From: Acidimicrobiia bacterium
GTDB taxonomy: Bacteria; Actinomycetota; Acidimicrobiia; Acidimicrobiales; Ilumatobacteraceae
DNA length: 11,181 nucleotides
NCBI GenBank assembly: GCA_010025655.1
Contig: RGSV01000024.1
Coordinates: forward strand, 1-11,181
Reading direction: 5' to 3'
Under the pieces are notes generated by a model that worked only from the letters and a program-made list of their open reading frames with translations, was not told where the DNA came from and did no database searches. Shown in pieces: positions 3,525-8,626 of the stretch (position 1 is its first letter; the number at the start of each line of letters is the position of its first letter). A program made the translations under genes and the position numbers.

Positions 3525-3917
3525 ATGGGTTCAGTGCGACGACACGTGCACATTGACCGAGACCCAGACACCGTGTGGAAACTCGTCGGAGCCCTCGAGC
3601 GTCAGCACGAATGGTTTCCGCTCAGCGGCTGTCGCGTCGAGGGTAAGAAGCGCTGGATCACCCTGCCGAGTGGCATCACCTTCGAAGAGGACATCATCAC
3701 ACACGACCACTCGCTACGACGGTTTCAATATCGAATCGTTGGCAATCCAGGCATCACCGCACACCTCGGCACCTGCGATGTGCTGGACGACGGCCGCGGT
3801 GGCTCGACGGTGGTGTATTCGACCGACATGGAACCTGAAGCACTCGCCCTCGTCATCGGTGGTGCGGCAGGTGAGGGTCTGCACAAACTGAAGCAACTCA
3901 TGGAGGCCGGCGGCTGA
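3525..3917 (+). CDS. Small SRPBCC (START-like) family protein
   Basis: A 130-residue soluble protein with the layout of the SRPBCC/polyketide-cyclase-like helix-grip fold. The opening beta strand RRHVHIDRDPDTVWKLVG (5-22) leads into the first helix, the typical 'conserved residues then D-x-VW' entry of the fold. Alternating beta strands follow, and a C-terminal amphipathic helix (about 108-128) would close the hydrophobic cavity. Family members bind or transform hydrophobic small molecules; nothing here identifies the ligand. The frame is open further back into ung, but the fold begins at the ATG at 3525, so I chose that start. Its TGA overlaps the ATG of the sulfatase gene (TGATG at 3915-3919), which implies translational coupling and probably a shared role. 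No signal peptide or membrane segment is present. Confidence 0.75.
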   Translation: MGSVRRHVHIDRDPDTVWKLVGALERQHEWFPLSGCRVEGKKRWITLPSGITFEEDIITHDHSLRRFQYRIVGNPGITAHLGTCDVLDDGRGGSTVVYSTDMEPEALALVIGGAAGEGLHKLKQLMEAGG

Positions 3918-5485
3918 TGGGTCGCAAAATTCTCTACATCACCACCGACCAGCAACGTTATGACGCGCTCGGTTGCAACGGCGGCGAGATTGCGCGTACC
4001 CCCGTCATCGACTCACTTGCGGCGAACGGCATCGTGTATGACCGCGCACATCCGCAAAACGTGGTGTGCATGCCGTCGCGCAGCACGATGTTGACCGGAC
4101 AACACGTAAGCACCCATGGTGTGTGGATGAATGGCGTGCCGCTTGCAAGCGACGCGCCGAGCATTGCGTCTGATTTGCGGCGAGCCGGCTATCGCACCGC
4201 ACTCGTCGGCAAGGCACACTTCGAGCCGTTCATTGATCCGTTTCTGCGGTTTGCCGAGAATCGCATTGGCTCGGGTGGTCTCGAGACCGAGATGCACCTT
4301 GACGCCGACGGTTTACCTGCACCCCATCGCGGCTTCGAGCACTTCGCTCTCGCAACCCACGGGGGTATGGGTCCATTTCATTACGCCCGATGGCTGCGCG
4401 AAAAGAACCCTGCCGCGGCGGGCATGTTCTTCCAAGTGCTCGATCAGCAGTTACAGGTGAATGCCGGTGGTGGTGGCGAAACTGGCGCGCCGCAGGTGAA
4501 GCACAACGACATCCCCCGCGAGTGGTATCACACCGAGTGGGTTGCCGACCAAACGATTGCGTGGCTCGACTCGCTGCCTGATGATGCCGACTGGTTTTGT
4601 TGGATGAGTTTTCCCGACCCGCATCATCCGTGGGATCCGCCAAAGAGCGAAATCGGGCGCGTCAACTGGCGTGATCTTGATCTTCCACCTGGATACATCG
4701 CCGATGCGAGCGAACGAGAGCGTGTGCTCGACGACAAGCCCCGCCACTGGCGACTCTGGTATGAGGGCACGTTCGTCTCGAACTACGAAGCGCCAGCCAA
4801 ATGGGTGCCGAAGACCCTCACCGCCGATCATGTGCGCGAGATCAACGCCATGGCGCACATCGAGAATGAGTTGATTGACGAAGCGGTTGGCCGCGTGCTC
4901 TCACGCATTGGTGCGCGCGGTTGGGGCAACGACCTCGACGTGCTCTACACGACCGATCATGGCGAGCTGCAGGGCGACTTCGGGCTCATGTTCAAAGGGC
5001 CGTACCACGTTGATTCGTTGATGCGTCTGCCGCTCATCTGGCGACCTGCGCCGTCAGCGCGCATTTCACCTGCGCGTGTGAGTGCACCTGTCGGCTTGGT
5101 GTCACTGGCTGGCACCTTCGCGACAATCGCTGGTTTGCCACACCCCGACTACGCCGAGGCCGAACGGCTGCCAACTTCAGATGACGAGGCCGTTTCGCTG
5201 GGTCACGAACGTGTGCTCACCGAGTGGGACAGCGTGTTGTTCGGAAAGATCGTCGGCGCACGCACGATCTGTCGTGACAACTGGGTGTGCACTGCGATGC
5301 TGCCGGGCACCGTGCACGACGGCACCGAGGGTGAGTTGTACGACCTCACCCATGATCCTCTGCAGCGTCGTAATTTGTGGAACGACCCCGCATCGGCCAC
5401 CCAGCGTGATGCATTACTTGATGACATGTGGTCTTCGTTCCCTGCCACCGTGCTGCCACGCCGCCCCTGCGACGCACCGGTCTGA
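3917..5485 (+). CDS. Formylglycine-dependent sulfatase family hydrolase
   Basis: A 522-residue member of the alkaline phosphatase superfamily that would hydrolyse a sulfate ester, or a phosphonate/phosphate monoester, at a calcium or manganese centre. CMPSR (51-55) is the C-x-P-x-R site whose Cys51 is converted to formylglycine by a separate enzyme not in this window. Likely metal and sulfate contacts are Asp11 and Gln12 (TTDQQRYDALG), Lys99 and His101 (GKAHFEP), His236 and/or His237 (PDPHHPWDPP), Asp347-His348 (TTDHGE) and Lys360 (FKGPYH). The PDPHHP motif recalls choline-sulfatase and phosphonate-monoester-hydrolase-like branches. No N-terminal signal peptide is visible, so the enzyme is probably cytosolic. 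A GGAGG site (3902-3906) lies 10 bases before the ATG. The last eight codons and stop belong to one copy of a 28-bp direct repeat. The substrate is unknown. Confidence 0.9.
   Translation: MGRKILYITTDQQRYDALGCNGGEIARTPVIDSLAANGIVYDRAHPQNVVCMPSRSTMLTGQHVSTHGVWMNGVPLASDAPSIASDLRRAGYRTALVGKAHFEPFIDPFLRFAENRIGSGGLETEMHLDADGLPAPHRGFEHFALATHGGMGPFHYARWLREKNPAAAGMFFQVLDQQLQVNAGGGGETGAPQVKHNDIPREWYHTEWVADQTIAWLDSLPDDADWFCWMSFPDPHHPWDPPKSEIGRVNWRDLDLPPGYIADASERERVLDDKPRHWRLWYEGTFVSNYEAPAKWVPKTLTADHVREINAMAHIENELIDEAVGRVLSRIGARGWGNDLDVLYTTDHGELQGDFGLMFKGPYHVDSLMRLPLIWRPAPSARISPARVSAPVGLVSLAGTFATIAGLPHPDYAEAERLPTSDDEAVSLGHERVLTEWDSVLFGKIVGARTICRDNWVCTAMLPGTVHDGTEGELYDLTHDPLQRRNLWNDPASATQRDALLDDMWSSFPATVLPRRPCDAPV
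5458..5485 (+). repeat. 28-bp direct repeat, upstream copy (3' end of sulfatase gene)
   Basis: These 28 bases match 6702-6729 at 27 of 28 positions; the single difference is C at 5465 against T at 6709, and the 20 bases 5466-5485 match exactly. Identity ends abruptly on both sides. The copy encodes the last residues of the sulfatase and its TGA. Inside it are a short palindrome TGCGACGCA (5468-5476) and ACCGGT (5476-5481). By simple expectation such a match in 11 kb is not due to chance. Confidence 0.9.
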
Positions 5486-5489
5486 ACCT

Positions 5490-6698
5490 GTGACCACGCG
5501 CAACGACGTCATCGTCATTGGCGGTGGCATTGTTGGCTTGGCAACGGCACTGCATCTCTTGCAGCAGATGCCTGGTCGACGATTGGTCGTCATAGAAAAG
5601 GAGCCGGCAGTTGCACAGCATCAGACTGGGCATAACAGCGGTGTAATCCACTCAGGTCTTTACTATCGCCCGGGCTCACTGAAAGCGCGCTTATGTGTCG
5701 AGGGCTACAACAAACTTCTTGACTTTTGTCGTGAAGAACAGATTCCCCATGAAGTATGCGGAAAGGTCGTAGTCGCACTTGCTGACTCACAGGTACCGCA
5801 GCTCGACGAGCTCGAGCGACGTGGGAGCGCCAACGGGCTTGGTGGTCTCCGGCGACTCACACCAGCAGAGATTCGGGAGCGTGAGCCCCACTGCGCTGGT
5901 GTCGCTGGGTTGTTTGTGCCACACACTGGCATCGTCGACTATGGCGCAGTAGCCGAGGCGATGGCTCGACATATTCGTGCCTTGGGTGGTGAAATCAGAC
6001 TCGATGAAGCTGTAGTCACAATCTCACCTGGTGAGCACGAGGTGCGTGTGCACACCACCCGCGGTGAGCACACGTGCAAGTTCGTGGTGACCTGTGGTGG
6101 CTTGCAGTCTGATCGTTTGACCCGCCAAACGGTGAGCGACCTCGATCTCCAGATTCTTCCATTTCGCGGCGAGTACTACACCCTCCGTGACTCTGCTCGC
6201 CATCTGGTGCGACATCTGATCTATCCGGTTCCAGACCCATCATTTCCGTTTCTTGGAGTGCACTTCACGCGCATGATTGATGGTGCCGTGGAGTGCGGGC
6301 CGAACGCCGTGCTTGCCTTCGCGCGTGAGGGCTACACCAAGACAACTGTGCGGCCTGGCGAGCTCGTTGAAACGTTGACATGGCCTGGTTTTCGAAAAGT
6401 CGCAAGAAAGTACTGGCGTACGGGTCTCGGAGAGTATCGGCGCTCGTTCTCGAAACGCGCTTTCGTTCGTGCACTCCAACAGCTCGTGCCAGACGTAACG
6501 GAAGGCGACTTGGTGCCAGCGCCAGCCGGCGTACGGGCCCAAGCGTGTGACCGTGATGGAAATCTGCTTGATGACTTTGCGATTCGTGAGACCGCACGAG
6601 TCTTCAATGTCTGCAATGCCCCGTCACCAGCGGCGACCGCGTCGCTGGCGATTGGCTCATACCTCGCCTCGCGCGTTACCGAACGATTCGAGGCGTAG
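5490..6698 (+). CDS. lhgO: L-2-hydroxyglutarate oxidase/dehydrogenase (FAD)
   Basis: The enzyme oxidises L-2-hydroxyglutarate to 2-oxoglutarate, passing electrons to O2 or the quinone pool; homologues are membrane-associated flavoproteins of the DAO fold. DVIVIGGGIVGLATALHLL (6-24) is the FAD-binding dinucleotide fold, and Glu36 in VVIEKE should contact the ribose. HNSGVIHSGLYYRPGSLKA (48-66) is the signature of the LhgO/L2HGDH family, and a second FAD region lies near APSPAATASLAIG (377-389). The 402 residues match the family. I chose GTG at 5490, 4 bases after the sulfatase stop and 5 residues before the first beta strand; the same frame runs further upstream but only as a shadow of the sulfatase gene. 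GC is lower than in the neighbours (eight sampled lines about 55%, against about 63% in four sulfatase lines). A 28-bp direct repeat brackets the gene. No Shine-Dalgarno site is visible. Confidence 0.92.
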   Translation: MTTRNDVIVIGGGIVGLATALHLLQQMPGRRLVVIEKEPAVAQHQTGHNSGVIHSGLYYRPGSLKARLCVEGYNKLLDFCREEQIPHEVCGKVVVALADSQVPQLDELERRGSANGLGGLRRLTPAEIREREPHCAGVAGLFVPHTGIVDYGAVAEAMARHIRALGGEIRLDEAVVTISPGEHEVRVHTTRGEHTCKFVVTCGGLQSDRLTRQTVSDLDLQILPFRGEYYTLRDSARHLVRHLIYPVPDPSFPFLGVHFTRMIDGAVECGPNAVLAFAREGYTKTTVRPGELVETLTWPGFRKVARKYWRTGLGEYRRSFSKRAFVRALQQLVPDVTEGDLVPAPAGVRAQACDRDGNLLDDFAIRETARVFNVCNAPSPAATASLAIGSYLASRVTERFEA

Positions 6699-6701
6699 TT
6701 G

Positions 6702-6729
6702 ACGCCGCTCCTGCGACGCACCGGTCTGA
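6702..6729 (+). repeat. 28-bp direct repeat, downstream copy (after lhgO)
   Basis: The second copy lies 1244 bp after the first, beginning 3 bases after the lhgO stop codon and ending 15 bases before the aguA stop codon on the other strand. Here it is non-coding. The bases immediately inside the two copies show no terminal inverted repeats, and no transposase or integrase lies between them. No clear stem and U-tract terminator could be made out in the 6699-6744 convergent gap. Confidence 0.9.
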
Positions 6730-6744
6730 GGTCAGTCTCGAGTT

Positions 6745-7722
6745 TTACAGCGCTGGTATCTGCTGCGTGATGCAGTGAATGCCGCCGCCGCCATAGGCAA
6801 GAATTTCACCAACGTCGAGCCCGACGACTTCACGCGACGGAAACCATTCGCCAAGTAGTGCCAGCACATCGTCATCGGCCGGGTGACCACACACGGGCAC
6901 AATGACGCCGCCGTTCACGACATAGAAGTTCACGTAGGGCACCACAACCCTGCGACCGTCGACATCAGTAAATGGCAAGACGGGTACTTCGCGCACTATG
7001 AAACCAGCGTCCTCTACCACGCGACGATTCACCGCCATGCGCTGGTGGTCGGGCTCTGCTGTGTCGTCGCAGCCTTGCAGCACCACCGTTTGCTCGTCGG
7101 CGAACGCCGCGACGTTGTCGACGTGGCCATCGGTGCCGTCGTCAAGATGCAACCCGTGCGGTAGCCAGACAACACGCTCTTGCCCAAGCTCGCTACGAAG
7201 CCGAGCCTCAATCTGCTCACGCGACAGGTGTGGATTGCGGTTCTTGTTTAAGAGACACTGCTCGGTCGTCAGCAGCGTGCCTTCACCGTTTGTCGTGATC
7301 GACCCGCCTTCGAGCACCATGTCGATGCTGCGATTTGTCTCGCCGCGCAGATGCAGCCATGCCGCTGCAACCTTGGCGTCGTTGTCGTACGGCAGATACT
7401 TGCCTCCCCAACTGTTGAACTTCCAACTCGTGCCGACGCGCTGTAGCCCGTCGCTGACATAGATCGGCCCCGTGTCACGAAACCATGAGTCGTCAATCGG
7501 TAGTGCCACGACTTCCACTGTGCTGCCGCACTGCGCAGCAGCGCGTTCAATATCTTGGTGGTTGGCAATCATGGTGACGGGCTCAAAGCCAGAGATGGTG
7601 CGAGCCACTGAGGCGTGCGCAAGATATGCATCACCGAGTCGCTGGCCGTACAGTTCATGACGGGCCGGCCAGCACATCACCGTGCGTTCATGGCGGGCAA
7701 ACTCCGCCGGCATGCGCATCAT
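6745..7722 (-). CDS. aguA: Agmatine deiminase
   Basis: The enzyme hydrolyses agmatine to N-carbamoylputrescine and ammonia, the first half of the arginine-decarboxylase route to putrescine. It belongs to the guanidino-group-modifying (pentein) fold. RMPAEFARHERTVMCWP (3-19) is the usual opening. Residues 78-87 (DDSWFRDTGP) contain Asp83, LEGGSI (137-142) has Glu138, DDGTDGHVDN (194-203) has the catalytic His200, and GGGGIHCITQQIP (311-323) has the nucleophile Cys317. The 325-residue length is slightly short but complete. The frame extends to 7932, but that extension lies inside aguB and shows no family similarity. ATG at 7722 is the first codon after the aguB stop; 7719 and 7713 are alternative ATGs. 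It is the last gene of the minus-strand unit with aguB, separated by 7 bases. Confidence 0.95.
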   Translation of the reverse strand: MMRMPAEFARHERTVMCWPARHELYGQRLGDAYLAHASVARTISGFEPVTMIANHQDIERAAAQCGSTVEVVALPIDDSWFRDTGPIYVSDGLQRVGTSWKFNSWGGKYLPYDNDAKVAAAWLHLRGETNRSIDMVLEGGSITTNGEGTLLTTEQCLLNKNRNPHLSREQIEARLRSELGQERVVWLPHGLHLDDGTDGHVDNVAAFADEQTVVLQGCDDTAEPDHQRMAVNRRVVEDAGFIVREVPVLPFTDVDGRRVVVPYVNFYVVNGGVIVPVCGHPADDDVLALLGEWFPSREVVGLDVGEILAYGGGGIHCITQQIPAL

Positions 7723-7729
7723 GCGTGAC

Positions 7730-8626
7730 TCAGCGCCGTGGCGTTTCGTTGGCGCCGTCGAAAGCGGTGCGAGCACCATCAAGCGTCGTAAGCGCGCCAT
7801 ACAACTCAGGGCGGCGATCGCGGAATAAACCCCACGCTGCACGCATCGCTCGATTTGCTTCGACGTCAATTTCGGCGACCAGCACACGCTCGTCGTCACG
7901 CCCCGCTTCGGCAACCTTCTCCCCTGTTGCATCGGTAATGAACGACGAACCGTAGAAGGTCACCGTCGTCGGGTTGCCCACTTCGCGGCCGGTGCGATTG
8001 GCTGCAACGACGGGAACCAGATTGGCAGCGGCATGGCCCTGCATCACGCGTTGCCAGTGGGCGCTTGAATCCCACGTCGGGTTCTGCGGCTCACTGCCGA
8101 TGGCGGTTGGATACAGAATCACATCGGCACCGAGCAGCGCCATGCTGCGAGCGGCTTCGGGAAACCACTGGTCCCAACAGATGCCAACGCCGACAGCACC
8201 GAACTTGGTCCGCCAGACACGAAACCCGGTATCGCCTGGCGAGAAATAAAACTTCTCGGAATATCCCGGTCCGTCAGGAATATGGCTCTTGCGATACTTG
8301 CCGAGCACCGCACCATCTGCGTCAACGACAACCACCGTGTTGAAGTAGGCGTTGTTGGCTCGTTCAAAGAGGCTCAGTGGCAGCACCACCTGCAACTCAC
8401 GCGCCACCTTGGCGAAGTGCGAAATCGTCGGGTGGCCGTCGAGAGGTAGCGCACGCTGCAACTCTTCGGCGCGTTGGTCTTTGCAGAAGTAGTGACCCTC
8501 GAAGAGTTCTGGAATCAAGACGATGTGCGCACCCTGCGCTGCGGCATCACGCACGAGGCGTTCGGCGACCGCAATATTCGTCGCAGTGTCGACCGCCATC
8601 GACATCTGAATCGCAGCAACACGCAT
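7730..8626 (-). CDS. aguB: N-carbamoylputrescine amidase (nitrilase superfamily)
   Basis: It hydrolyses N-carbamoylputrescine to putrescine, CO2 and ammonia, completing the pathway begun by agmatine deiminase. This is a cytosolic homo-oligomer of the nitrilase superfamily with a Glu-Lys-Cys triad. The triad is visible as Glu40 (VLIPELFEGHYF), Lys113 (GKYRKSHIPDGPGY) and Cys150 (GVGICWDQWFPE). The ELFEGHYFCK segment and the PTAIGSEP loop (about 193-200) are typical of AguB rather than of other nitrilases. The 298 residues match the family. The ATG at 8626 follows the peroxidase stop codon by 6 bases. No Shine-Dalgarno site is evident, which suggests re-initiation after the upstream gene. Its adjacency to aguA makes the assignment firm. 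Confidence 0.95.
   Translation of the reverse strand: MRVAAIQMSMAVDTATNIAVAERLVRDAAAQGAHIVLIPELFEGHYFCKDQRAEELQRALPLDGHPTISHFAKVARELQVVLPLSLFERANNAYFNTVVVVDADGAVLGKYRKSHIPDGPGYSEKFYFSPGDTGFRVWRTKFGAVGVGICWDQWFPEAARSMALLGADVILYPTAIGSEPQNPTWDSSAHWQRVMQGHAAANLVPVVAANRTGREVGNPTTVTFYGSSFITDATGEKVAEAGRDDERVLVAEIDVEANRAMRAAWGLFRDRRPELYGALTTLDGARTAFDGANETPRR

Follow-up and report, generated by a model that had tools for sequence, protein, structure and literature searches.

A 28-base direct repeat around lhgO as a possible scar of imprecise allele exchange in a freshwater actinobacterium

Organisation of the locus

We analysed an 11,181-nucleotide stretch of DNA (contig RGSV01000024.1, hereafter the window) from an Acidimicrobiia bacterium of the family Ilumatobacteraceae, in which a sulfatase-family gene is followed by lhgO and then by aguA and aguB on the opposite strand. 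The relevant features are as follows.

3917..5485, plus strand: gene of the sulfatase family encoding 522 aa, which forms the conserved left border of the slot (Pfam PF00884; 9 of 12 congeners have an orthologue, truncated at a contig end in one)
5458..5485, plus strand: repeat copy 1, the last 25 coding bases of the sulfatase and its stop codon (from the sequence)
5490..6698, plus strand: lhgO, the slot's accessory gene, encoding a 402-aa L-2-hydroxyglutarate oxidase from a GTG start (559.6 bits to NCBIfam NF008726, cut-off 299)
6699..6701, plus strand: the novel right-hand junction, 3 bases lying after the lhgO stop and before copy 2 (from the sequence)
6702..6729, plus strand: repeat copy 2, a duplicated sulfatase 3' end outside the sulfatase, with T for C once (from the sequence)
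6730..6744, no strand: 15-base spacer from copy 2 to the aguA stop (compared with empty slots)
6745..7755, minus strand: aguA-like gene of the agmatine deiminase family, start approximate, conserved right border (Pfam PF04371)

The protein match firmly supports lhgO as a genuine L-2-hydroxyglutarate oxidase gene, while both NCBIfam matches of the aguA-like gene are to agmatine deiminase and fall below the curated cut-off. Two copies of a 28-base sequence (5458-5485 and 6702-6729) lie in direct orientation, identical at 27 of 28 bases, the sole difference being a C/T at base 8, after which 20 bases match exactly. Copy 1 ends with the last base of the sulfatase stop codon, beyond which the next five bases differ at every position (ACCTG vs GGTCA). 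The GTG start of lhgO at 5490 lies 4 bases past copy 1, and copy 2 begins 3 bases past the lhgO stop (6696-6698), such that lhgO is the only gene between them. A preliminary description of the window had reported this arrangement, and repeat lengths, identities, spacings and the single-gene interval were all recovered as described.

The repeat pair is unique in its genome

The exact part of the repeat measures 20 bases, while the longest exact direct repeat in 200 shuffles that kept the window's first-order Markov composition had a maximum of 17 and a mean of 13.5; the pair is real and beyond chance. In the organism's own draft genome (1.52 Mb, 78% complete), which is the single assembly from which the repeat is known, these two places are the only matches to the 28-mer at up to 3 mismatches, confirming that it is not dispersed genome-wide. 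The other strand of this genome gave no match, and a reversed-pattern control gave 0. No other internal non-tandem pair of like quality was found within 6 kb across 101 contigs of this genome (the window and 100 others, a non-random set of 566 kb, 51 kb of them N), the nearest other internal pair matching at 21 of 23 bases (contig L203).

We also considered the 28-mer as a structure or terminator and rejected this, as 5380-6820 contains no terminator or promoter match and the junction folds like its shuffles (z 0.61 and -0.20 for the two strands). No Rfam match was found in 5300-6900. Separately, GGCGT-AGTTG-ACGCC, with two 5-base inverted arms around a 5-base loop, lies across the novel right junction (6692-6706), perhaps by chance.

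Some features of the assembly itself were recorded. Two contig starts are exact copies of sequence lying about 1.1 kb further into their own contig (L205, 1-39 and 1147-1185; L212, 1-72 and 1105-1176), the L212 copy being a piece of a pyrH-like gene placed beyond the gene after frr (names by eye); both are probably contig-end chimeras. The lengths of 30 of the 101 contigs are multiples of 30, where 3-4 are expected, hinting at stepwise trimming in assembly; one contig entered this count cut to 20,000 bases. Public record titles of several MAGs near this genome (L095 and others) read 'Bifidobacterium breve' or 'Ferrithrix thermotolerans' and are probably misnamed.

The slot between sulfatase and aguA varies across the genus

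Among 13 genomes of the genus, the organism's own included, nine congeners show the sulfatase together with its downstream side, and G001, G011 and G012 gave weak sulfatase matches only. The slot is empty in seven of the nine (G002, G004, G005, G006, G007, G008 and G010), with sulfatase followed directly by aguA, and the remaining two, G003 and G009, carry lhgO in the same slot (69% and 68% identity) without the repeat. A wider set of 80 sulfatase loci drawn from genome_contigs, which includes most of the nine congeners again, has aguA downstream in 45 cases and no aguA within the fetched stretch in 35. At most 52 bases separate the two matches in 39 of the 45 aguA-bearing loci; 2 have lhgO, and 4 have a 1.8-kb insert. 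With the seven empty congeners, these 39 loci provide the support that the preliminary description had asked for in its own check. In these four (L105, L114, L115 and L119) the same slot holds a two-gene cargo, 3-hydroxyisobutyrate-dehydrogenase-like and oxygenase-like by eye, whose start again lies no more than about 25 bases from the sulfatase stop. On this evidence a sulfatase adjoining aguA looks like the ancestral state, and the slot appears to take up genes occasionally.

Empty junctions in the congeners range, by eye, from overlapping stops to 31 bases. The 15 bases from copy 2 to the aguA stop fall inside this range, and copy 2, spacer and aguA stop together resemble an empty junction. 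The left junction of lhgO lies at the slot edge also used in congeners; its right junction is unique to the window.

In a tree of sulfatase and aguA proteins every lhgO carrier is closely related to a genome with an empty slot: the window pairs with G010, G003 with G006 and G008, and G009 with G002. G009 (with lhgO) and G002 (without) average 97% identity in the 3 kb leading up to the slot, where 100-base bins within the sulfatase score 94-100%, and 95% in the roughly 1.1 kb beyond it, where bins on the aguA side score 92-99%. On this tree the pattern calls for either three gains of lhgO or one gain followed by five or six losses, the number varying with the root. Given this filling and emptying within the genus, lhgO appears to be a come-and-go gene between conserved convergent genes, and since G003 and G009 have lhgO and no repeat, the slot can fill without one.

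Composition and relatives of lhgO

Third-position G+C of lhgO is 0.58, compared with 0.61-0.72 in nine other window genes (read in frame, with ung and an SRPBCC gene left out), and in the two congeners the values are 0.45 and 0.53 for lhgO but 0.70 and 0.73 for the sulfatases; this lower value hints at a foreign origin. Close relatives occur in 3 of the 13 genomes of the genus, including the organism's own, with weak matches in three more (E 2e-7 to 9e-4). The three carriers share 68.5, 67.7 and 70.8% amino-acid identity in lhgO, somewhat lower than the 70.5, 71.2 and 78.8% in aguA. In a tree of 140 lhgO proteins they form one group of 41 tips with P0001-P0038 (support 0.97), outside which fall ten copies from genus g4 (G223, which belongs to genus g6, was left out of this check). 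Within the group P0001 is a 96% lhgO with 63 member sequences, the longest contig behind them measuring 3,999 bases. In the g4 stretches read, lhgO adjoins an ABC-exporter-like gene and mostly also sugar-isomerase- and epimerase-like genes (names by eye). The grouping of the three carriers and their identities fit an old gene of the genus, coming and going at one place.

A phage or plasmid vehicle for lhgO was considered and rejected. No relatives were found in viral contigs, where two stretches matched a pattern and neither was confirmed, and homologues in 284 plasmid and 8 phage records are all below 60% identity. Three cyanophage records of equal length (ON073792, PP438404 and PP438434) contain a homologue with 52.6% identity over 95% of the query, annotated in one of them as an FAD dependent oxidoreductase. 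An estimate of lhgO population frequency from protein-cluster sizes was dropped as too crude.

The duplication is probably younger than the slot polymorphism

Set against either repeat copy, every one of the nine congeners has 7-11 mismatches in 28 bases, compared with 1 between the copies themselves; the duplication would therefore have arisen in the window's lineage from its own sulfatase end, and probably postdates the separation of that lineage from all congeners sampled. Later gene conversion between the copies would equally make the repeat look young. When the sulfatase end was searched for again in the next 3 kb of 56 related loci (less where contigs end, down to 259 bases), 0 of 56 exceeded 19/28, whereas the window has 27/28; the best score among control 28-mers taken from within those sulfatase genes was 20/28. 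This check left out 24 of the 80 loci, namely L145, which ends two bases past the match, and L149-L171, of which 22 have neither aguA nor aguB and L167 has aguB; G007, cut at its other end, was likewise left out, and for L142 the end coordinate lies off any stop codon. On its right the repeat stops with the final base of the stop codon, at the very point where the lhgO-plus and lhgO-minus alleles of the congeners part.

An imprecise exchange between lhgO-plus and lhgO-minus alleles

The simplest account, to which we give about an even chance, is that the repeat is the scar of an imprecise exchange between these two alleles. The slot is dimorphic in the genus, some lineages having lhgO and others being empty. 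The left part, sulfatase and lhgO, would come from an lhgO-plus allele, which just past the lhgO stop would have been joined, without long homology, to an lhgO-minus allele 28 bases before its sulfatase stop, thereby leaving a second sulfatase 3' end between lhgO and aguA. The minus-allele parent would have read sulfatase stop, then the spacer GGTCAGTC. The dimorphic slot, the lineage-specific duplication and its right edge at the stop codon are observed, while we infer both the exchange of flanks by recombination and the identity of the participating alleles.

Two routes may be envisaged. In one, a linear fragment recombines on one side only, by homology-facilitated illegitimate recombination; in the other, a fragment made of 28 bases of the sulfatase end and lhgO closes into a circle and enters by a single crossover. 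Linear or circular, the product is identical. A point against the circular route is that 28 bases lie just under the approximately 30 given for RecA-dependent recombination in E. coli in the cited part of PMC2884548. The one-sided account is in turn weakened because illegitimate recombination of this kind, as presented in the relevant sections of PMC3240628, seldom occurs under laboratory conditions and usually removes DNA from the recipient. An ordinary two-sided exchange could also apply since the lhgO-plus congeners share aguA, which counts against one-sidedness. Profiles of three congener pairs with and without lhgO showed no divergent donor tract next to the slot, and that of the window against G010 showed no clear one. 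A ComEC-type domain, compatible with DNA uptake, was found in 9 of the 13 genomes of the genus, including the organism's own.

Among the origins proposed in the preliminary description, capture by short-homology recombination comes closest to the imprecise exchange favoured here. The view that the repeat marks the filling of the slot itself, whether by att-like restoration of the gene end or a cassette mobilised in trans, both raised in that description, or by target duplication, is not supported, given that two congeners have lhgO without the repeat and that the duplication is lineage-specific.

The same observation weighs on the general case of target-site duplication, in which lhgO would have entered via a 28-base staggered break that duplicated the sulfatase end, whether by a transposition-like event, a trans-acting recombinase or fragment capture in break repair. 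The geometry suits it, with an empty site in congeners and near-identical copies flanking one gene; nevertheless, in addition to the two repeat-free carriers, the two insert ends do not form an inverted pair (by eye, and among the 25 listed of 77 inverted pairs none joins the ends), no recombinase was found among the 10 window proteins searched, and the genome holds no further 28-mer. We regard such an insertion as unlikely. Lineage-specificity of both copies would also be expected had lhgO long been resident and a local template switch during replication copied the sulfatase end to its far side. The 5-base inverted repeat across the junction speaks for such a switch, and lhgO divergence (68-71% amino-acid identity, just above the divergence of aguA at 70.5-79%) is compatible with long residence. 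It leaves unexplained why the copied piece ends exactly at a stop codon and is followed by a spacer like that of an empty slot, and we consider it decidedly unlikely.

Assembly or amplification could also have joined a plus haplotype to a minus haplotype, with no chromosome carrying the repeat, and the C/T difference could then be a strain difference. This retains some probability because 6 of the 202 contig ends examined look chimeric: 30 bases there, in direct orientation in 2 and inverted in 4, recur 0.2-1.1 kb further into the contig they terminate. Not counted are a seventh end, where the copy is in tandem, and an eighth, which matches a different contig. The chimeric-looking cases all lie at contig ends, whereas the repeat is internal, between two intact genes, and a chimera of a single haplotype could not yield copy 2 followed by aguA; an artefact appears decidedly improbable. 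Imprecise exchange may also be placed in a wider setting, in which lhgO-plus and lhgO-minus alleles are kept side by side genus-wide as a trans-species presence/absence polymorphism, through recombination and perhaps selection, and the window is a recombinant caught in the act; we view this extension as rather unlikely.

Relation to known systems

The slot fits the definition of a minimal mobile element in Neisseria, namely variable gene content between two conserved flanking genes, as worded in the cited part of PMC3082526: among nine congeners 7 are empty and 2 hold lhgO, and 4 further loci hold a two-gene cargo. As to transfer through the flanks, those of G009 and G002 are near-identical up to the slot and no divergent donor tract is visible. 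The present slot differs in varying between species-level genomes of a freshwater actinobacterium, with exchange by recombination being what we infer, and in adding a 28-base scar.

In homology-facilitated illegitimate recombination one of the two ends joined is homologous and the other illegitimate; the passages concerned describe it for S. pneumoniae, Acinetobacter baylyi and Pseudomonas stutzeri and as rare in E. coli (PMC3240628, PMC5361080). The proposed event resembles it in that one end is anchored by homology and the other joined illegitimately. As described there the process generally deletes recipient DNA, whereas the window shows a short duplication. In the E. coli study, as reported in the part cited, duplications were present in 56 of 60 recombinants and ascribed to single crossovers of circular molecules, as in the circular route above (PMC3240628). 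Repeats also flank 10-18% of variable segments in E. coli, S. aureus and S. pyogenes, 66-94% of them shorter than 30 bp, and in the cited sections are discussed mainly as a route of deletion (PMC2884548). The window's repeat differs from these in being probably younger than its variable slot.

Other classes of element were compared as well. The insert ends are not inverted copies by eye and no transposase occurs among the 10 window proteins, as a transposon or insertion sequence would have. As to the attC-type structured site that follows the gene in an integron cassette, the junction folds like its shuffles and 5300-6900 has no match to the general Rfam models. As for an integrative element at a gene's 3' end, the interval is lhgO alone and the other two carriers have no repeat.

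Taken together, the locus is a neat small case of a known kind and no new kind of mobile element. It presents one metabolic gene that freshwater actinobacteria with small genomes can gain and lose at a fixed place, no dedicated mobile-element machinery being seen at the locus. The repeat offers a route to exact loss of lhgO and, given sequenced conspecific strains, the scar would expose the recombination step itself.
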